This document shows positions 3,585 through 64,000 of a stretch of 64,000 bases of DNA, piece by piece. Within the stretch, counting starts at the first letter, position 1. The number at the start of each line of letters is the position of its first letter. Origin of the DNA: a virus. The stretch covers positions 111,953 through 175,952 of the IMG/VR virus record IMGVR_UViG_3300037258_000514. One strand, written 5' to 3'. The notes under the pieces were generated by a model that worked only from the letters and a program-made list of their open reading frames with translations, made no database searches and was not told where the DNA came from. The translations under genes were made by a program, and so were the position numbers.

Positions 3585-3828
3585 AGTTGTTATTCCGTAG
3601 TAAGGCACGTATTTTTAACACGCCCTCTTTTACTTCTACAGCATTCTTTGTTGAAAGTTCTTCTAACTTCTTTACTATGAAGTTATACGCACCATGTGTG
3701 CTTAGTGCTTCTGCAATCAACTTCATAAACTCTTCTTGACATGCTCCATCATAAATGATAGGAATGTGTTGATACTTACCTTCACGAAAGTAAAGCCCTT
3801 TTCCCCGTGCTTCAATTGTATGTTTCAT
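3565..3828 (-). CDS. hypothetical protein (87 aa)
   Basis: Overlaps both neighbours slightly (ATGA-type join at 3825-3828), typical of one transcript. Mixed alpha/beta; no recognised family. Confidence 0.65.
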   Translation of the reverse strand: MKHTIEARGKGLYFREGKYQHIPIIYDGACQEEFMKLIAEALSTHGAYNFIVKKLEELSTKNAVEVKEGVLKIRALLRNNNYAKCNE

Positions 3829-4031
3829 ATCTCATTTACTGTTATTGAAGCTCCCTCTGCATGTCCAGCAGCCTTTAATATCTTATCTGCTAAACCTGTT
3901 GCAAGAAATGTTTCGTACCAGTAGTTAGGATAATGCCCGTTGTGAGCTTCCTTAACTTTGGCACAGTTAGCGTTCCATTCTCGTGGAGTCTTGCTTGACG
4001 ACATGAGTGCTACTACATCTTCTTTTGTCAT
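3825..4031 (-). CDS. hypothetical protein (68 aa)
   Basis: Small soluble protein in the same chain. The middle holds a W-N-x-N-C-A-K-V-K segment and a 'GHYPNYWYE' stretch reminiscent of small phage proteins, but I cannot name the family. Confidence 0.65.
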   Translation of the reverse strand: MTKEDVVALMSSSKTPREWNANCAKVKEAHNGHYPNYWYETFLATGLADKILKAAGHAEGASITVNEI

Positions 4032-4241
4032 TTAATAAATTCCCGAATGTCCTGATGCACGTGCTCGTTGCTTTCTAACCACTCCATAACAATGGTCACA
4101 CAAGGGAACAAGTCTACTCGAACCTAATGGATAGTGATGTTTCCTTGTTTTCTTTGGTTTGTGGCAGCGCGCACAGTTTGGTTTACTTGCTATAGTGGGT
4201 TTGGTTTGCGTGTTATCTAGTTGCTGCTTTTGAAGGTTCAT
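4032..4241 (-). CDS. small zinc-ribbon protein (69 aa)
   Basis: Two CxxC knuckles (CARCHKPK and CDHCYG) about 24 residues apart with basic residues between: a typical four-cysteine zinc ribbon, probably nucleic-acid or protein binding. Abuts the gene at 4031 directly. Function unknown. Confidence 0.7.
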   Translation of the reverse strand: MNLQKQQLDNTQTKPTIASKPNCARCHKPKKTRKHHYPLGSSRLVPLCDHCYGVVRKQRARASGHSGIY

Positions 4242-4256
4242 CTACTGTCTCCTTTC

Positions 4257-4442
4257 TTATAACTCCTTCCAGTTTATTGTGTTAACTGCGCTGTGCATTT
4301 TAGCTTTCATTGCTTCAGCAACTCTTGTACACTCTGCTTTAGCGAAGATTGTAAATTGATCTGCCATCTGCTCGTTAATAACCCAACCACGACTATTTAG
4401 TTCTTTAACAAACTCTAAAGCGCGATCATGTACTGTCTTCAT
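4257..4442 (-). CDS. hypothetical protein (61 aa)
   Basis: Helical protein with Shine-Dalgarno 'GGAGAG' before ATG 4442. It lies just downstream of the mobile nuclease gene at 4460. No recognised family. Confidence 0.65.
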   Translation of the reverse strand: MKTVHDRALEFVKELNSRGWVINEQMADQFTIFAKAECTRVAEAMKAKMHSAVNTINWKEL

Positions 4443-4459
4443 TTTCTCTCCTTTCTATC

Positions 4460-5302
4460 CTAAAGCTTGATTCCTTCTAACATTGAAAGTTCTTTTTCTG
4501 TTACTACTACAAAAGTAGAGTTGTTTTCCTCCGCCCATTTTATAGCAGCGGCAAACTTCGCAACATTTTCTGTTGTTTCTAAAAGATTAAAAGGTTTAAT
4601 CTCAACTAGTTTCCTATCTCCGTTAGTGTAAGTAACTAAGAAATCTACAATGTAAATTCTAACTTCATTGTTAAGTATGTATTGAAGTCGAATTTTATCC
4701 TTTTCAAATAAAAGAACGTCTTTTCTTTTATCTAAAAATCTTGTAAACGTTCTTTCCCAATTACTCTGACAGAAAATATTACCGCCTTTTACTGTTATTT
4801 CTACTGATGATTTTGCTTTGAAACGATGTTTTTGCGGGTTTGTTTTTCCTTGACTTATGTTTTCAAGACAAGAATTACTAAGCTGCTTCCTTAAACTCTC
4901 AGGCCATGGATGCATAATCTTTCCCGGTTTTTTGGCTATAGCAGCCCTTATGCTAGCCGAAAGAAGATTTTTTATTGCAGAAGCTTTTTCTTTACCATAT
5001 TGTTCCTCAAAACTTCTGCCTTTCTTGTTATTTGGAGGATGCCATGCTCCAGAAGCAATTAAATTCTTCTTTGATTTACTCATATTCTTCTTATTTTCTT
5101 CTGTTGGCTTCCAACCTTTGTTTCCATGTCCTCCTCTATTTTTATCGCCAATTTTAATTCTAGCTTCGATAGAGACTTTATGGCCAAGAAGTCCTTCGCT
5201 TATATGAGTACGATGAGCTTCAGAACACTTCTTTCCTTTTCGAGAAAGGCTCATTCTCTCTTTCCAAAGAGCGTAAGCTTCGGGATTTTTCGGGGCAGGC
5301 AT
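4460..5302 (-). CDS. freestanding homing-type endonuclease, NUMOD3 + TnsA-like PD-(D/E)xK domain
   Basis: 280 residues. The N-terminal half has NUMOD3-like repeats (SRKGKKCSEAHRTHISEG; KGWKPTEENKKNMSKSKK) that bind DNA. The C-terminal half has a PD-(D/E)xK nuclease core like TnsA: E in 'CQSNWERTF' (about residue 182), D in 'IVDFLVTY', E-x-K in 'LVEIKP', then a 'FVVVTEKEL' strand. Its nuclease domain matches that of the gene at 13269, and its N-terminus (MPAPKNPEAYALW) matches the HNH gene at 17055. It sits 5 bases downstream of the helicase gene, as a collaborative homing gene would. Cleavage target unknown. Confidence 0.8.
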   Translation of the reverse strand: MPAPKNPEAYALWKERMSLSRKGKKCSEAHRTHISEGLLGHKVSIEARIKIGDKNRGGHGNKGWKPTEENKKNMSKSKKNLIASGAWHPPNNKKGRSFEEQYGKEKASAIKNLLSASIRAAIAKKPGKIMHPWPESLRKQLSNSCLENISQGKTNPQKHRFKAKSSVEITVKGGNIFCQSNWERTFTRFLDKRKDVLLFEKDKIRLQYILNNEVRIYIVDFLVTYTNGDRKLVEIKPFNLLETTENVAKFAAAIKWAEENNSTFVVVTEKELSMLEGIKL

Positions 5303-60861: not shown

Positions 60862-61110
60862 ATGAAGCGTTGGATCATCTTCGCATTAGCCGCAGCAGTT
60901 GCAGTTGGGCGTATATTTATTACGCCGCGACTAACAAATATTCCGTCAACTGAAATGAGTTACGAAGCATTTGCTCACTTATTTGTGGGCGGATTGATTG
61001 GTATTTCATGGTACAACTGGCATGATGAAGAAGCAACGCTTTATGGACGTATTGGATGGGGATTAGCATTCTGGGAACTCGGATGTTTTATCGTACAGAA
61101 GTGTTTTTAG
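60862..61110 (+). CDS. membrane protein (82 aa)
   Basis: N-terminal hydrophobic helix (WIIFALAAAVAVG), then 'FAHLFVGGLIGISWYNWHD' and a third hydrophobic stretch. A conserved-looking H-x(4)-G-G...W-H pattern; function unknown. Confidence 0.65.
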   Translation: MKRWIIFALAAAVAVGRIFITPRLTNIPSTEMSYEAFAHLFVGGLIGISWYNWHDEEATLYGRIGWGLAFWELGCFIVQKCF

Positions 61111-61116
61111 AAATCT

Positions 61117-61932
61117 ATGGCTAAGGGAACGTGGATTAGAACTGATGAGTTTCGTGAAGCTCAACGGCAAAGAGCTTTACAAGTGTACGAACGTAAATTA
61201 ACTTTAACAGGAAGTAAAGTTGATTATATAACTCCTGAGTATAGAACTAATCTTAGTGCCGGAGTCCGTAAAGCTTGGAAAGAAGGAAGACGCAAAGGTG
61301 GATGGAAATGTAGCGAAGAACATAATAGAAGTATTAGTTTAGCGTTAAAAGGAAAACCAAAATCTGAAGAACACAAAGCTAAACTTCGTGGACCAAGAAC
61401 AGAAGAGGAAAAGCTTCATATGCGTGAAGCTGCGTTGAATAGAACAGAAGAACAGAAACAACAAAGAAATACGCGCTATCAAATTTCTTTAGACCTTAAC
61501 GGCGGAAGAGAAAGAATAAGTGCGGCTAACAAAGGGATAAAACGATCAGAAACTACAAGAGCGCTAATTGTAGTAAATAGGGCAAAGTTAAAGTTTCCGT
61601 ATAACAATAGTAAACCTGAAGTAAAAACGCAGGAATATCTTCGTTCGATTAATGTTAGTTTTGAAACACACAAGAGACTAGAATTTTATCGTCTTCATAC
61701 TTACGATATTGTTATTACAGATAGAAAAGTAATAGTTGAAGTAGATGGATGTTACTGGCATGGATGTCCTCAACACTATCCGGAAAATTTAGATGAGCAG
61801 AAAGAGCGTGATCTCTTGCATACATCTATTGCTGAACAGAATGGTTGGAAAGTAATTCGAATATGGGAACATGAAATAAACTCGGGCGATTTTAGTAAGC
61901 TAATCGCTTTAATGGAGGGCAGGAATGGCTAA
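61117..61932 (+). CDS. Vsr-like homing endonuclease with NUMOD3 repeats
   Basis: 271 residues. NUMOD3-like motifs ('CSEEHNRSISLALKGKPKSE', 'SAANKGIKRSETTRA') then a Vsr-type nuclease: 'HTYDIVITDRKVIVEVDGCY' running into WHGCPQHYPE and ending 'GWKVIRIWEHEI'. Sits 6 bases after the previous gene and overlaps the first ATG of the radical-SAM gene by 8 bases, so it is a freestanding homing gene next to a conserved target. Confidence 0.85.
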   Translation: MAKGTWIRTDEFREAQRQRALQVYERKLTLTGSKVDYITPEYRTNLSAGVRKAWKEGRRKGGWKCSEEHNRSISLALKGKPKSEEHKAKLRGPRTEEEKLHMREAALNRTEEQKQQRNTRYQISLDLNGGRERISAANKGIKRSETTRALIVVNRAKLKFPYNNSKPEVKTQEYLRSINVSFETHKRLEFYRLHTYDIVITDRKVIVEVDGCYWHGCPQHYPENLDEQKERDLLHTSIAEQNGWKVIRIWEHEINSGDFSKLIALMEGRNG

Positions 61933-61956
61933 AGTATGTATACTAGATAGCCCGTC

Positions 61957-64000
61957 ATGGTTACTTTTCAACCCAAGACAATTCCTGCACCTCTAGGTAT
62001 ACTTTATTTAGCAGGCGCTCTTCGAAGAGCAGGACACGACGTCGAGGTTATTGATTGTCATGATGTAACTTCTTGGGATGCAGATAAACGAGAACTGATA
62101 ATTCATAGAGAGAAACTTACAAAGTGTGATATTGTTGGTATCTCTGCAACTACTGCAAACGTACACTGGGGCAAACAATTAGCAAAAGTATGGCCGGCAA
62201 AGTTTAAGGTGTTAGGTGGATCGCACGCTACTTATATTTTGAGAGGTCCACATGAGCAGTTTAAACGTCCTTCGTACTTTGAAGGGTTTAATTTTATTAT
62301 AATCGAAGAAGCTGAAGAAACTTTCGTTCAGTTCTGCGATGGTTTCGATAAAGGCGATGTATCACAAACGCCTAACCTGTGCTGGTTTAACGCACTCGGA
62401 ATGTTACAACGTAATCCTCATGCTGGATTACCTGATGTAGAAAAACTAGCTCCTCCGGCTTTTGATTTATGGCCTAGTCAATTTGCTGGTGGAGGATTAA
62501 GTGCAAACGGATATGATAGAAAACTGAACTTAAACGAAGCGATGACAGCTTCGATGTATAACAGTAGAGGATGCTTAGAAGCAGGAACACAAATTACACT
62601 AGCTAATGGAACTTTAAAATCTATTGAAGATTTACAGGAAGATGAAGAAGTTCAGTGTTTTGATCTTAATACAAAGAAGTTAGCAAGTGCTCCTATTAAA
62701 GTTACATGGGAGAGGGAAGCGAATGATCTATGGGAAATTGAATTAGAAAATGGTGTTATATTACATATAACAGGTGAGCATCCTGTATGGACAAAGGAAG
62801 GATGGCATATAGTTGAGAAAGTGTACGATGGTCAAGAAGTTTTGTTCTCAATGCGGGACAGAATTCCTTGTTTATCCTTCGCAAATACATCTGAAAACTT
62901 GTTCTCACAAATGCAGAGTAGAACTGTTAACGGAAACACTTACGAAGAAAGCAGCGGCGATGACCAAGGAAGAAAGAGCAAAATACTACGGTCATCCTCC
63001 GATTCCGTCTATAGAGACTCAAAGAGTTATTTCAGAAGGAAAGCGCGGAGACAAAAATCCAGCGAAACGCCCGGAAGTAGCAGCGAAGATTGCAAATACA
63101 GTGAAAACAAAGTATGGAGCTATTCTATCAGCTCAAATCAAAAAGCGTTGGCAAGCTGGAACAATGCCTTTGCCATGGCAAAGAATTGGTGGTATAGGAA
63201 TAGCGCCGAACAAGTCGGAATTGCTTCTAACACAGATACTAAACGAGAGTTTAACTCAATTCAAATATGTAGGAGATGGCAACTTCTGGATTGGGCCCTG
63301 CATCTCAGGTACGCGCCGCAATCCGGACTTTGTGGATTCAAAATCAAAAAAAGCTATACTTCTTCACGGCGAGTATTGGCATCCGGAGAAAGATGCTCAA
63401 GTAGAAGCTTTAGATTATCTAAACTACGGATGGAAAGTTTGCGTAATTTGGGATGCAGAATTGAGTATGAAGAACAGAATAATTCTTCAAAACAAGCTGA
63501 AGTTATTTGGACAAGAGTCATACGAAGGACATTTGTTGGGCATTCCAGCGTCTACAATATAACAATTCATCCTTACCATAACTATTTTGCAAATGGAGTT
63601 CTTGTTCATAACTGTCCTTATGGCTGCAGATTTTGTGCCGATGCCCGCACCAAAATACGTAATGAAAGTTTCGATCAAGTTGAAGGGCAAATTAAGCACC
63701 TTGCATCCTTGGGAGTATCAGCGATTCGGATTCAAGATGACGTTCTCACGATTAAAGCTGATAGATGTAAAAGGATTGCAGATATCCTCGATAATTATAA
63801 CATGAAGTGGCGTGGCAATACACGCGTAAATCTTACAGATCCAAACTTATTTAAGTACATGGCGAAACGTGGATGTATTGAGTTAGGTTTTGGCTGTGAG
63901 CATGGATCTGCAAAGATGTTAAAGTTAATGGATAAAGGTACTACGCCTGAGAAGAACACAGAAGGGATCAAGATGTGTCAAGAAGCCGGCATGGTTGCTA
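61957..64000 (+). CDS. radical-SAM protein with in-frame intein (3' end cut by window)
   Basis: N-extein 61957-62571: B12-binding-like Rossmann domain ('APLGILYLAGALRRAGHDVE', 'DIVGISATTANVH', 'FKVLGGSHAT'). C-extein from 63613: CPYGCRFC, the CX3CX2C cluster motif, then the TIM-barrel strands ('AIRIQDDVL', 'IELGFGCEHGS'). Spliced junction reads SRG|CPYGCRFC. ATG 61957 has no Shine-Dalgarno; ATG 61925, in another frame, has GGAGGG and encodes MAKVCILDSPS, the expected N-terminus, so a 1-base frameshift probably separates the true start from the body. Enzyme substrate unknown. Confidence 0.8.
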   Translation, partial: MVTFQPKTIPAPLGILYLAGALRRAGHDVEVIDCHDVTSWDADKRELIIHREKLTKCDIVGISATTANVHWGKQLAKVWPAKFKVLGGSHATYILRGPHEQFKRPSYFEGFNFIIIEEAEETFVQFCDGFDKGDVSQTPNLCWFNALGMLQRNPHAGLPDVEKLAPPAFDLWPSQFAGGGLSANGYDRKLNLNEAMTASMYNSRGCLEAGTQITLANGTLKSIEDLQEDEEVQCFDLNTKKLASAPIKVTWEREANDLWEIELENGVILHITGEHPVWTKEGWHIVEKVYDGQEVLFSMRDRIPCLSFANTSENLFSQMQSRTVNGNTYEESSGDDQGRKSKILRSSSDSVYRDSKSYFRRKARRQKSSETPGSSSEDCKYSENKVWSYSISSNQKALASWNNAFAMAKNWWYRNSAEQVGIASNTDTKREFNSIQICRRWQLLDWALHLRYAPQSGLCGFKIKKSYTSSRRVLASGERCSSRSFRLSKLRMESLRNLGCRIEYEEQNNSSKQAEVIWTRVIRRTFVGHSSVYNITIHPYHNYFANGVLVHNCPYGCRFCADARTKIRNESFDQVEGQIKHLASLGVSAIRIQDDVLTIKADRCKRIADILDNYNMKWRGNTRVNLTDPNLFKYMAKRGCIELGFGCEHGSAKMLKLMDKGTTPEKNTEGIKMCQEAGMVA
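62572..63612 (+). other. intein (347 codons) with dual-coded central region
   Basis: Block A starts at Cys1: CLEAGTQITLANGTLKSIED. Block B: 'GVILHITGEHPVWTKEGW' (about residue 60). The C-terminal splicing block 'VYNITIHPYHNYFANGVLVH' ends in N, followed by Cys+1, the first iron-sulfur cysteine of the host protein. Between them (62828-63562) the frame remains open but encodes Ser/Arg/Lys-rich sequence lacking any endonuclease block, because that DNA encodes a nuclease in another frame. Confidence 0.85.
62828..63562 (+). CDS. Vsr/EDxHD-like homing endonuclease nested out of frame in the intein
   Basis: 244 residues from ATG 62828 (TTG 62813 is in frame; GAGAAAG is a weak binding site). N-terminal zinc ribbon CSQC...CSHKC, a NUMOD3-like helix ('SEGKRGDKNPAKRPEVAAKI'), then a Vsr-like core: 'NKSELLLTQIL', 'RRNPDFVDSKSKKAILLHGE' followed by YWHPE, and 'WKVCVIWDAEL'. 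It is shifted by one base relative to the intein frame. It spans almost exactly the gap between the N- and C-terminal splicing blocks. Expected to promote homing of the intein by cutting intein-free alleles. Confidence 0.85.
   Translation: MVKKFCSQCGTEFLVYPSQIHLKTCSHKCRVELLTETLTKKAAAMTKEERAKYYGHPPIPSIETQRVISEGKRGDKNPAKRPEVAAKIANTVKTKYGAILSAQIKKRWQAGTMPLPWQRIGGIGIAPNKSELLLTQILNESLTQFKYVGDGNFWIGPCISGTRRNPDFVDSKSKKAILLHGEYWHPEKDAQVEALDYLNYGWKVCVIWDAELSMKNRIILQNKLKLFGQESYEGHLLGIPASTI

Follow-up and report, generated by a model that had tools for sequence, protein, structure and literature searches.

An intein whose linker also encodes a predicted homing endonuclease was identified in a 64,000-nucleotide stretch of viral DNA (hereafter the window; positions 111,953 to 175,952 of IMG/VR record IMGVR_UViG_3300037258_000514). 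The element interrupts a radical-SAM gene, and its splicing domain and linker are read in the frame of that gene, whereas the nuclease is encoded by the same DNA in frame +1. We consider it to be a mobile intein with a dual-coded linker, with a probability of about 0.9. The contiguous, dual-coded organization is supported by independent genomes, codon-shuffle nulls, substitution patterns, start and Shine-Dalgarno signals, and structure prediction. The features concerned are the following.

61117..61932, + strand: free-standing EDxHD/NUMOD3-type homing endonuclease gene (Pfam DUF559/Vsr/MTES_1575; PHROG homing endonuclease)
61925..64000, + strand: host gene (extein), B12-binding radical-SAM protein (Pfam B12-binding and Radical_SAM; inteinless homologues L002-L005)
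62572..62862, + strand: N-terminal splicing half of the intein, blocks A and B (Pfam Intein_splicing; AlphaFold residues 1-97 confident, Hint fold)
62813..63562, + strand: nested homing-endonuclease gene, frame +1 relative to the intein (ORF; PHROG endonuclease; Vsr below cut-off; L015 homologue; fold match)
62863..63489, + strand: linker in the intein frame (stop-free; no Pfam match; predicted disordered)
63490..63612, + strand: C-terminal splicing half of the intein, blocks F and G, ending in His-Asn (Pfam Intein_splicing; AlphaFold residues 307-348 confident)

A first-pass annotation, made from the sequence alone, had placed splicing blocks A/B and the C-terminal block in an open radical-SAM frame, with an intein at 62572-63612 and a nuclease ORF at 62828-63562 one base out of frame. 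All of this was confirmed. The radical-SAM frame contains no stop from 61951 to the window end, and the profile search suggested at that time matched Pfam Intein_splicing in full (P0001 residues 213-552, 58.5 bits against a cut-off of 35.8). The residues required for splicing were checked individually and are complete: Cys1 at 62572, the block B T-x-x-H motif at 62770-62781 (T at 62770, H at 62779), the terminal His-Asn at 63607/63610, and Cys+1 at 63613. They are invariant across 22 relatives. AlphaFold modelled a confident Hint fold from residues 1-97 and 307-348 (127 residues with pLDDT of at least 90), and Foldseek matched the modelled intein to DnaB, RecA, DnaE, and other PDB inteins (E values of 4e-8 and weaker). 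Nearly all residues from 98 to 306 have pLDDT below 50, which predicts a disordered linker, and a Pfam search with the linker in its own frame returned no match. The two halves are joined without a single intervening stop, unlike those of a fractured gene or split intein, and the nuclease lies in frame +1 rather than in frame as in a canonical large intein. A group I or II intron was also considered and rejected, as the host frame is open and no Rfam match was found up to E=1 in 61000-64000.

The nested ORF may start either at ATG 62828 or at an alternative TTG at 62813, which is preceded by AAGGA, and it stops at 63560-63562. Its product combines a well-modelled N-terminal zinc ribbon, central helices, and a C-terminal EDxHD/Vsr-like domain modelled with moderate confidence. 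The initial description of a Vsr/EDxHD-like nuclease is probably correct: the Pfam Vsr match (E 0.0016) falls under the Pfam cut-off and the PHROG endonuclease family match is also weak, while in Foldseek the moderate-confidence model found its best PDB match in the catalytic domain of I-Bth0305I (3r3p, prob 1.00, E 3.6e-3). Residues E131, D167, and H185 are invariant in 5 relatives. The window nuclease is a remote member of its family. As a single query it retrieved no relatives among viral contigs or phages, and when aligned with its homologue from a second virus (L015) it retrieved further matches (L114-L118), none with an intein-block match. The nested nucleases of helicase-type relatives, described below, have a clear DUF559 match.

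The intein is inserted directly 5' of the first Fe-S cysteine in the radical-SAM CxxxCxxC motif (SRG|CPYGCRFC). Four homologues of the host gene (L002-L005, 74-77% identity) are uninterrupted at RG|CPYGC and represent empty sites, so that the insertion is sporadic at a conserved position. The host gene is cut by the window end, which is also the end of the 175,952-base virus record. At its other end a frameshift had escaped the first-pass annotation. The native ATG is at 61925, and the frame from there fits the homologues as far as FLHL before meeting a TAG at 61994. Compared with the homologues, the window copy carries a 2-nt insertion near 61990 (CACCTCTAGGT in the window, CACCTCGGG in the homologues), which puts the N-terminus out of frame. 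The host gene may be decaying, or the insertion may be a sequencing indel; in either case it lies outside the intein and the dual-frame finding is unaffected. Directly upstream, the stop of the free-standing nuclease gene (61117-61932) overlaps the radical-SAM start codon. This second nuclease beside the intein-bearing gene may co-operate with the nested one or compete with it for the locus.

Further analysis examined whether the open intein frame is under selection, as had been proposed. Synonymous codons were permuted within the nuclease over 1000 trials, with protein and codon usage kept. The shuffled sequences had an expected 14.7 stops in the intein frame and the observed sequence had 0; no shuffle in 1000 was free of stops. 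The third frame had 21 stops against 17.4 expected. The earlier chance estimate near 1e-5, although sound in kind, was too generous. Intein-frame stops can arise only where a nuclease codon ending in T precedes AA, AG, or GA, so that avoidance can be read directly from the codons: T-ending codons were found at 0 of 65 positions before such codons and at 63 of 178 elsewhere (Fisher p=9.7e-11). The free-standing nuclease at 61117-61932, used as an unconstrained control, showed no avoidance (39/101 against 58/169, p=0.51). The openness of the intein frame is under selection.

Substitutions between close pairs of relatives in the +1 class gave a consistent picture at the codon level. Within the overlap, 1588, 702, and 595 substitutions fell at intein positions 1, 2, and 3, respectively, where intein position 1 is nuclease position 3; outside the overlap the counts were 748, 539, and 1037 (the pairs are not mutually independent). 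Single pairs agree in the overlap (26:2:0 for L020/L021 and 20:4:3 for L009/L018). This excess at nuclease third positions, together with the absence of intein-frame stops, indicates protein-level constraint on the nuclease and on the splicing halves, with the linker constrained mainly against stops.

Homologues with the same nesting, which the first-pass annotation had proposed to look for, were found in independent genomes, isolates included. A search for Val-His-Asn|Cys-Pro-(Tyr/Phe)-Gly-Cys identified a second virus (L015) with the same element in the same gene; here the host gene is intact, with an open frame of 805 codons. In Vibrio phage 104E43.1, reached through a tblastn match, a helicase intein contains a DUF559/EDxHD nuclease in frame +1. 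The same helicase-intein nesting is present in Vibrio phages 159E43-1b, K391, 1.194.O, 1.088.O, and CP-T1, in Pseudomonas phage MR14, and in Corynebacterium phage phi673. Analogous nesting of the HNH_3 type was found in the terminase genes of Acinetobacter phage Highwayman and Tetrasphaera phage TJE1, and related HNH genes are free-standing near the terminase in BP10, EauM-23, and SN1. In total, the double-coded design occurs in well over a hundred other phage sequences, cultured phages included. In the isolate records that were checked, the nested nuclease ORF carries no annotation.

Three surveys were used to place these cases. In the first, loci were fetched by the EDxHD nuclease alone, with earlier loci added, and HMMs for both Hint halves and the nuclease were applied; because of the way they were fetched, the loci were not chosen for openness. 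Both Hint halves were present in 73 non-redundant contiguous loci with the nuclease in frame +1 and in 3 closed loci. It had been argued that intein frames routinely closed by stops in homologues would make the element a split, fractured gene; the ratio of 73 open to 3 closed shows the opposite. The contiguous loci have 0 intein-frame stops against 700.7 expected and 1318 third-frame stops against 1228 expected, although the zero is partly definitional, as the contiguous class is defined by openness, and the informative measures are the open-to-closed ratio and the shuffle P of each locus (largest 0.03, mostly <0.001). In the fractured EDxHD relatives the stops are at 14 of 15.2, 10 of 12.2, and 27 of 27.5 expected, and in the intein-less relatives they are at or near the expected level. 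In the fractured cases the two halves still share one frame, which is what an origin from contiguous ones would predict.

The second survey used as queries frame +2 nucleases that are HNH_3 proteins with zinc ribbons, and isolates were added; these loci were chosen mostly by nuclease. It returned 66 contiguous loci in frame +2 and 1 in frame +1 (L322, checked by eye), besides 6 split, 6 partial, and 5 without intein, that is, 67 open against 6 split. The 66 frame +2 loci have 0 intein-frame stops (128.8 expected) and 1130 third-frame stops (1211 expected), and in the split and intein-less groups stop counts are at expectation. The third survey, blind to nucleases, used the intein C-terminus pattern ANGVxVHNC and collected at least 80 loci; its prevalences are valid for this sample only. 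Among the matches listed, the N half was in the same ORF in 69 of 80. Among those 69, a long out-of-frame ORF that looks nuclease-like when read is present in 55, in frame +2 in 42 cases and in frame +1 in 13; another 11 have large in-frame linkers, several of them LAGLIDADG- or HNH-like by sequence, and 3 are mini-inteins. L008, L011, L121, L125, L145, L167, and others, with mini or in-frame linkers, served as ordinary controls.

Several individual loci deserve separate mention. In Vibrio phages L008 and L011 a nuclease-free mini-intein occupies the helicase DE|CH site that holds the nested-nuclease intein in other Vibrio phages, and a further intein apparently lies earlier in the same helicase gene. 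In the CPFGC-site gene of L013/L016 (IMGVR_UViG_3300033145_001546) the N-intein forms an in-frame fusion with an EDxHD-like nuclease and terminates there, and a second, overlapping ORF, read in a different frame, opens with the C-intein. This is a split version that follows another frame logic. L179 has an intein at 3740-4792 (+ strand) with an open sense frame and an EDxHD-like nuclease antisense within it at 3947-4660 (- strand), a third form of nesting, seen once. In L151, L152, L155, and L192 a different HNH-type nuclease is nested in frame +1, which suggests more independent origins of nesting.

The expression of the nested gene was approached through its start signals. A start codon lies near the domain start in 73 of 73 nested EDxHD ORFs and is ATG in 71. 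Shine-Dalgarno matches of at least 4 bases precede 38 of 71 first ATGs, compared with 79 of 512 for internal ATGs of that frame and 5 of 90 for the intein frame; about half of the nested ORFs have no recognisable Shine-Dalgarno at the first ATG. In several Vibrio phages (L019-L022), inspection places GAGGT within the DEVL codons, where the intein N-half ends, and the DNA there apparently doubles as a Shine-Dalgarno sequence.

Taken as a mobile intein with a dual-coded linker, the element would work as follows. The host frame runs uninterrupted through the N-extein, the Hint N-half, an unstructured linker of about 210 residues, the Hint C-half, and the C-extein. The Hint domain would then excise itself together with the linker and so restore the radical-SAM CxxxCxxC region by ligating the exteins. 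Ribosomes initiating internally on the same mRNA would produce the nuclease as a separate protein; it would cleave the intein-less radical-SAM site, and repair would copy in the whole element. The linker is selected mainly for the absence of stops, since a single one would leave the host protein truncated. Once the linker acquired a stop, the element would become a fractured (split-intein) gene, whose openness would then no longer be maintained.

Other explanations were weighed against this reading. Indels introduced by sequencing or assembly into an ordinary intein whose endonuclease is in frame could mimic two frames, and the 2-nt frameshift near 61990 in the same gene makes contig indels conceivable. 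However, two compensating indels would be required, which would leave the stop-free intein frame still to be explained, and the identical layout recurs in independent genomes (among them the isolates CP-T1, 104E43.1, MR14, and phi673), with analogous ones in TJE1 and Highwayman. The independent genomes refute this explanation in substance, and its probability is negligible. It is also very unlikely that the window holds a split intein whose linker frame is not translated through and whose halves splice in trans. An EDxHD nuclease between intein halves is a known arrangement, and split relatives do exist (L068, L071, L073, L112, L277, and L299), but the frame is open in the window, in 73 EDxHD loci, and in 67 HNH loci. 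The split EDxHD relatives again have about as many stops as expected, and openness therefore marks the cis-translated precursor.

Two further explanations concern the nuclease itself. Programmed frameshifting into +1 after the N-half could produce a fusion of N-extein, N-intein, and nuclease, the unshifted product being spliced. It would agree with the EDxHD cases of one search (A1), which are all in frame +1, and with the nested ORFs that lack a strong Shine-Dalgarno at the first ATG. Nevertheless, every one of the 73 ORFs has a usable start near the domain start, Shine-Dalgarno sequences are enriched 3-4 fold there, several nested ORFs (L022, L029, and L069) open just a codon or two before the start, and the HNH family in frame +2 would need another slip. 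As far as sequence signals can indicate, own starts and Shine-Dalgarno enrichment favour internal initiation over frameshifting, which we regard as improbable. The nuclease might otherwise be a decaying relic within an element that only splices, as the weak Pfam score of the window nuclease could imply. The third-position excess in close pairs, a sign that purifying selection acts on the nuclease frame throughout the family, makes this quite unlikely, as does the comparison between the window and L015, with 51% identity in the nuclease frame and 26% in the linker frame.

The preferred reading thus remains a mobile intein whose linker is dual-coded, and the surveys allow a wider proposal. The element had first been regarded as an intermediate or a new type. 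It does represent a type, but one that is widespread, with two nuclease folds and two frames, and the fractured genes look like its derivatives. On balance, we lean towards the joint view that out-of-frame nesting is a major, repeatedly evolved organization of phage inteins with non-LAGLIDADG nucleases (EDxHD in +1; HNH_3 in +2 and once in +1; another HNH in +1; once an antisense EDxHD), that it frees nuclease expression from splicing even though a single DNA segment serves the two, and that the contiguous form is the parent state of fractured genes, reached through a stop in the linker. The literature surveyed here treats the intein homing endonuclease as part of the intein polypeptide; here one DNA segment would specify two proteins in two frames, and single-frame annotation therefore misses the mobility gene. 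The origin of split inteins and fractured genes by loss of openness becomes testable, since relatives in both states exist. These loci also offer long natural same-strand overlapping genes for dual-coding studies, with a clean +1 rule (no T-ending codon before AA, AG, or GA), and a source of weakly constrained intein linkers of about 200 residues.

Several known systems share parts of this organization. Fractured genes reportedly contain split inteins with a Vsr-like EDxHD nuclease between the halves. They have the same parts in the same order (N-extein-IntN, EDxHD nuclease, IntC-C-extein), but as separate ORFs that splice in trans, whereas the window has one unbroken frame through the nuclease gene. 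I-Bth0305I is intron-encoded; the likeness to its family concerns the catalytic domain alone, as the best PDB fold match of the window nuclease, and is of moderate strength. Canonical large inteins, with LAGLIDADG or HNH nucleases in frame, likewise combine a Hint domain with a homing endonuclease at a conserved position of a host protein, as in the dCTP deaminase intein of CL131 with its in-frame HNH_3 (PMC6293099). There nuclease and splicing domain are parts of one polypeptide; in the window the nuclease would be a separate protein in another frame. Among the 5.4 million open papers that were searched, none described an intein whose nuclease lies out of frame. Closest among published cases is the ShiLan insertion, which with that of Pacc40 places an out-of-frame HNH endonuclease in a phage DNA methylase gene (Arsenault, Gosselin, Gogarten 2025, PMC11855218). 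Both resemble the window element in the other-frame nuclease, the host frame left open, the phage setting, and presumed homing, but they lack a splicing domain of the intein kind and are believed to stay in the protein (PMC11855218). The window element has a complete Hint domain around its nuclease, which is EDxHD-like and has no HNH match. Judged from sequence, the component kinds are known, and what appears to be new, and unusually broad, is the contiguous intein with its nuclease in another frame.
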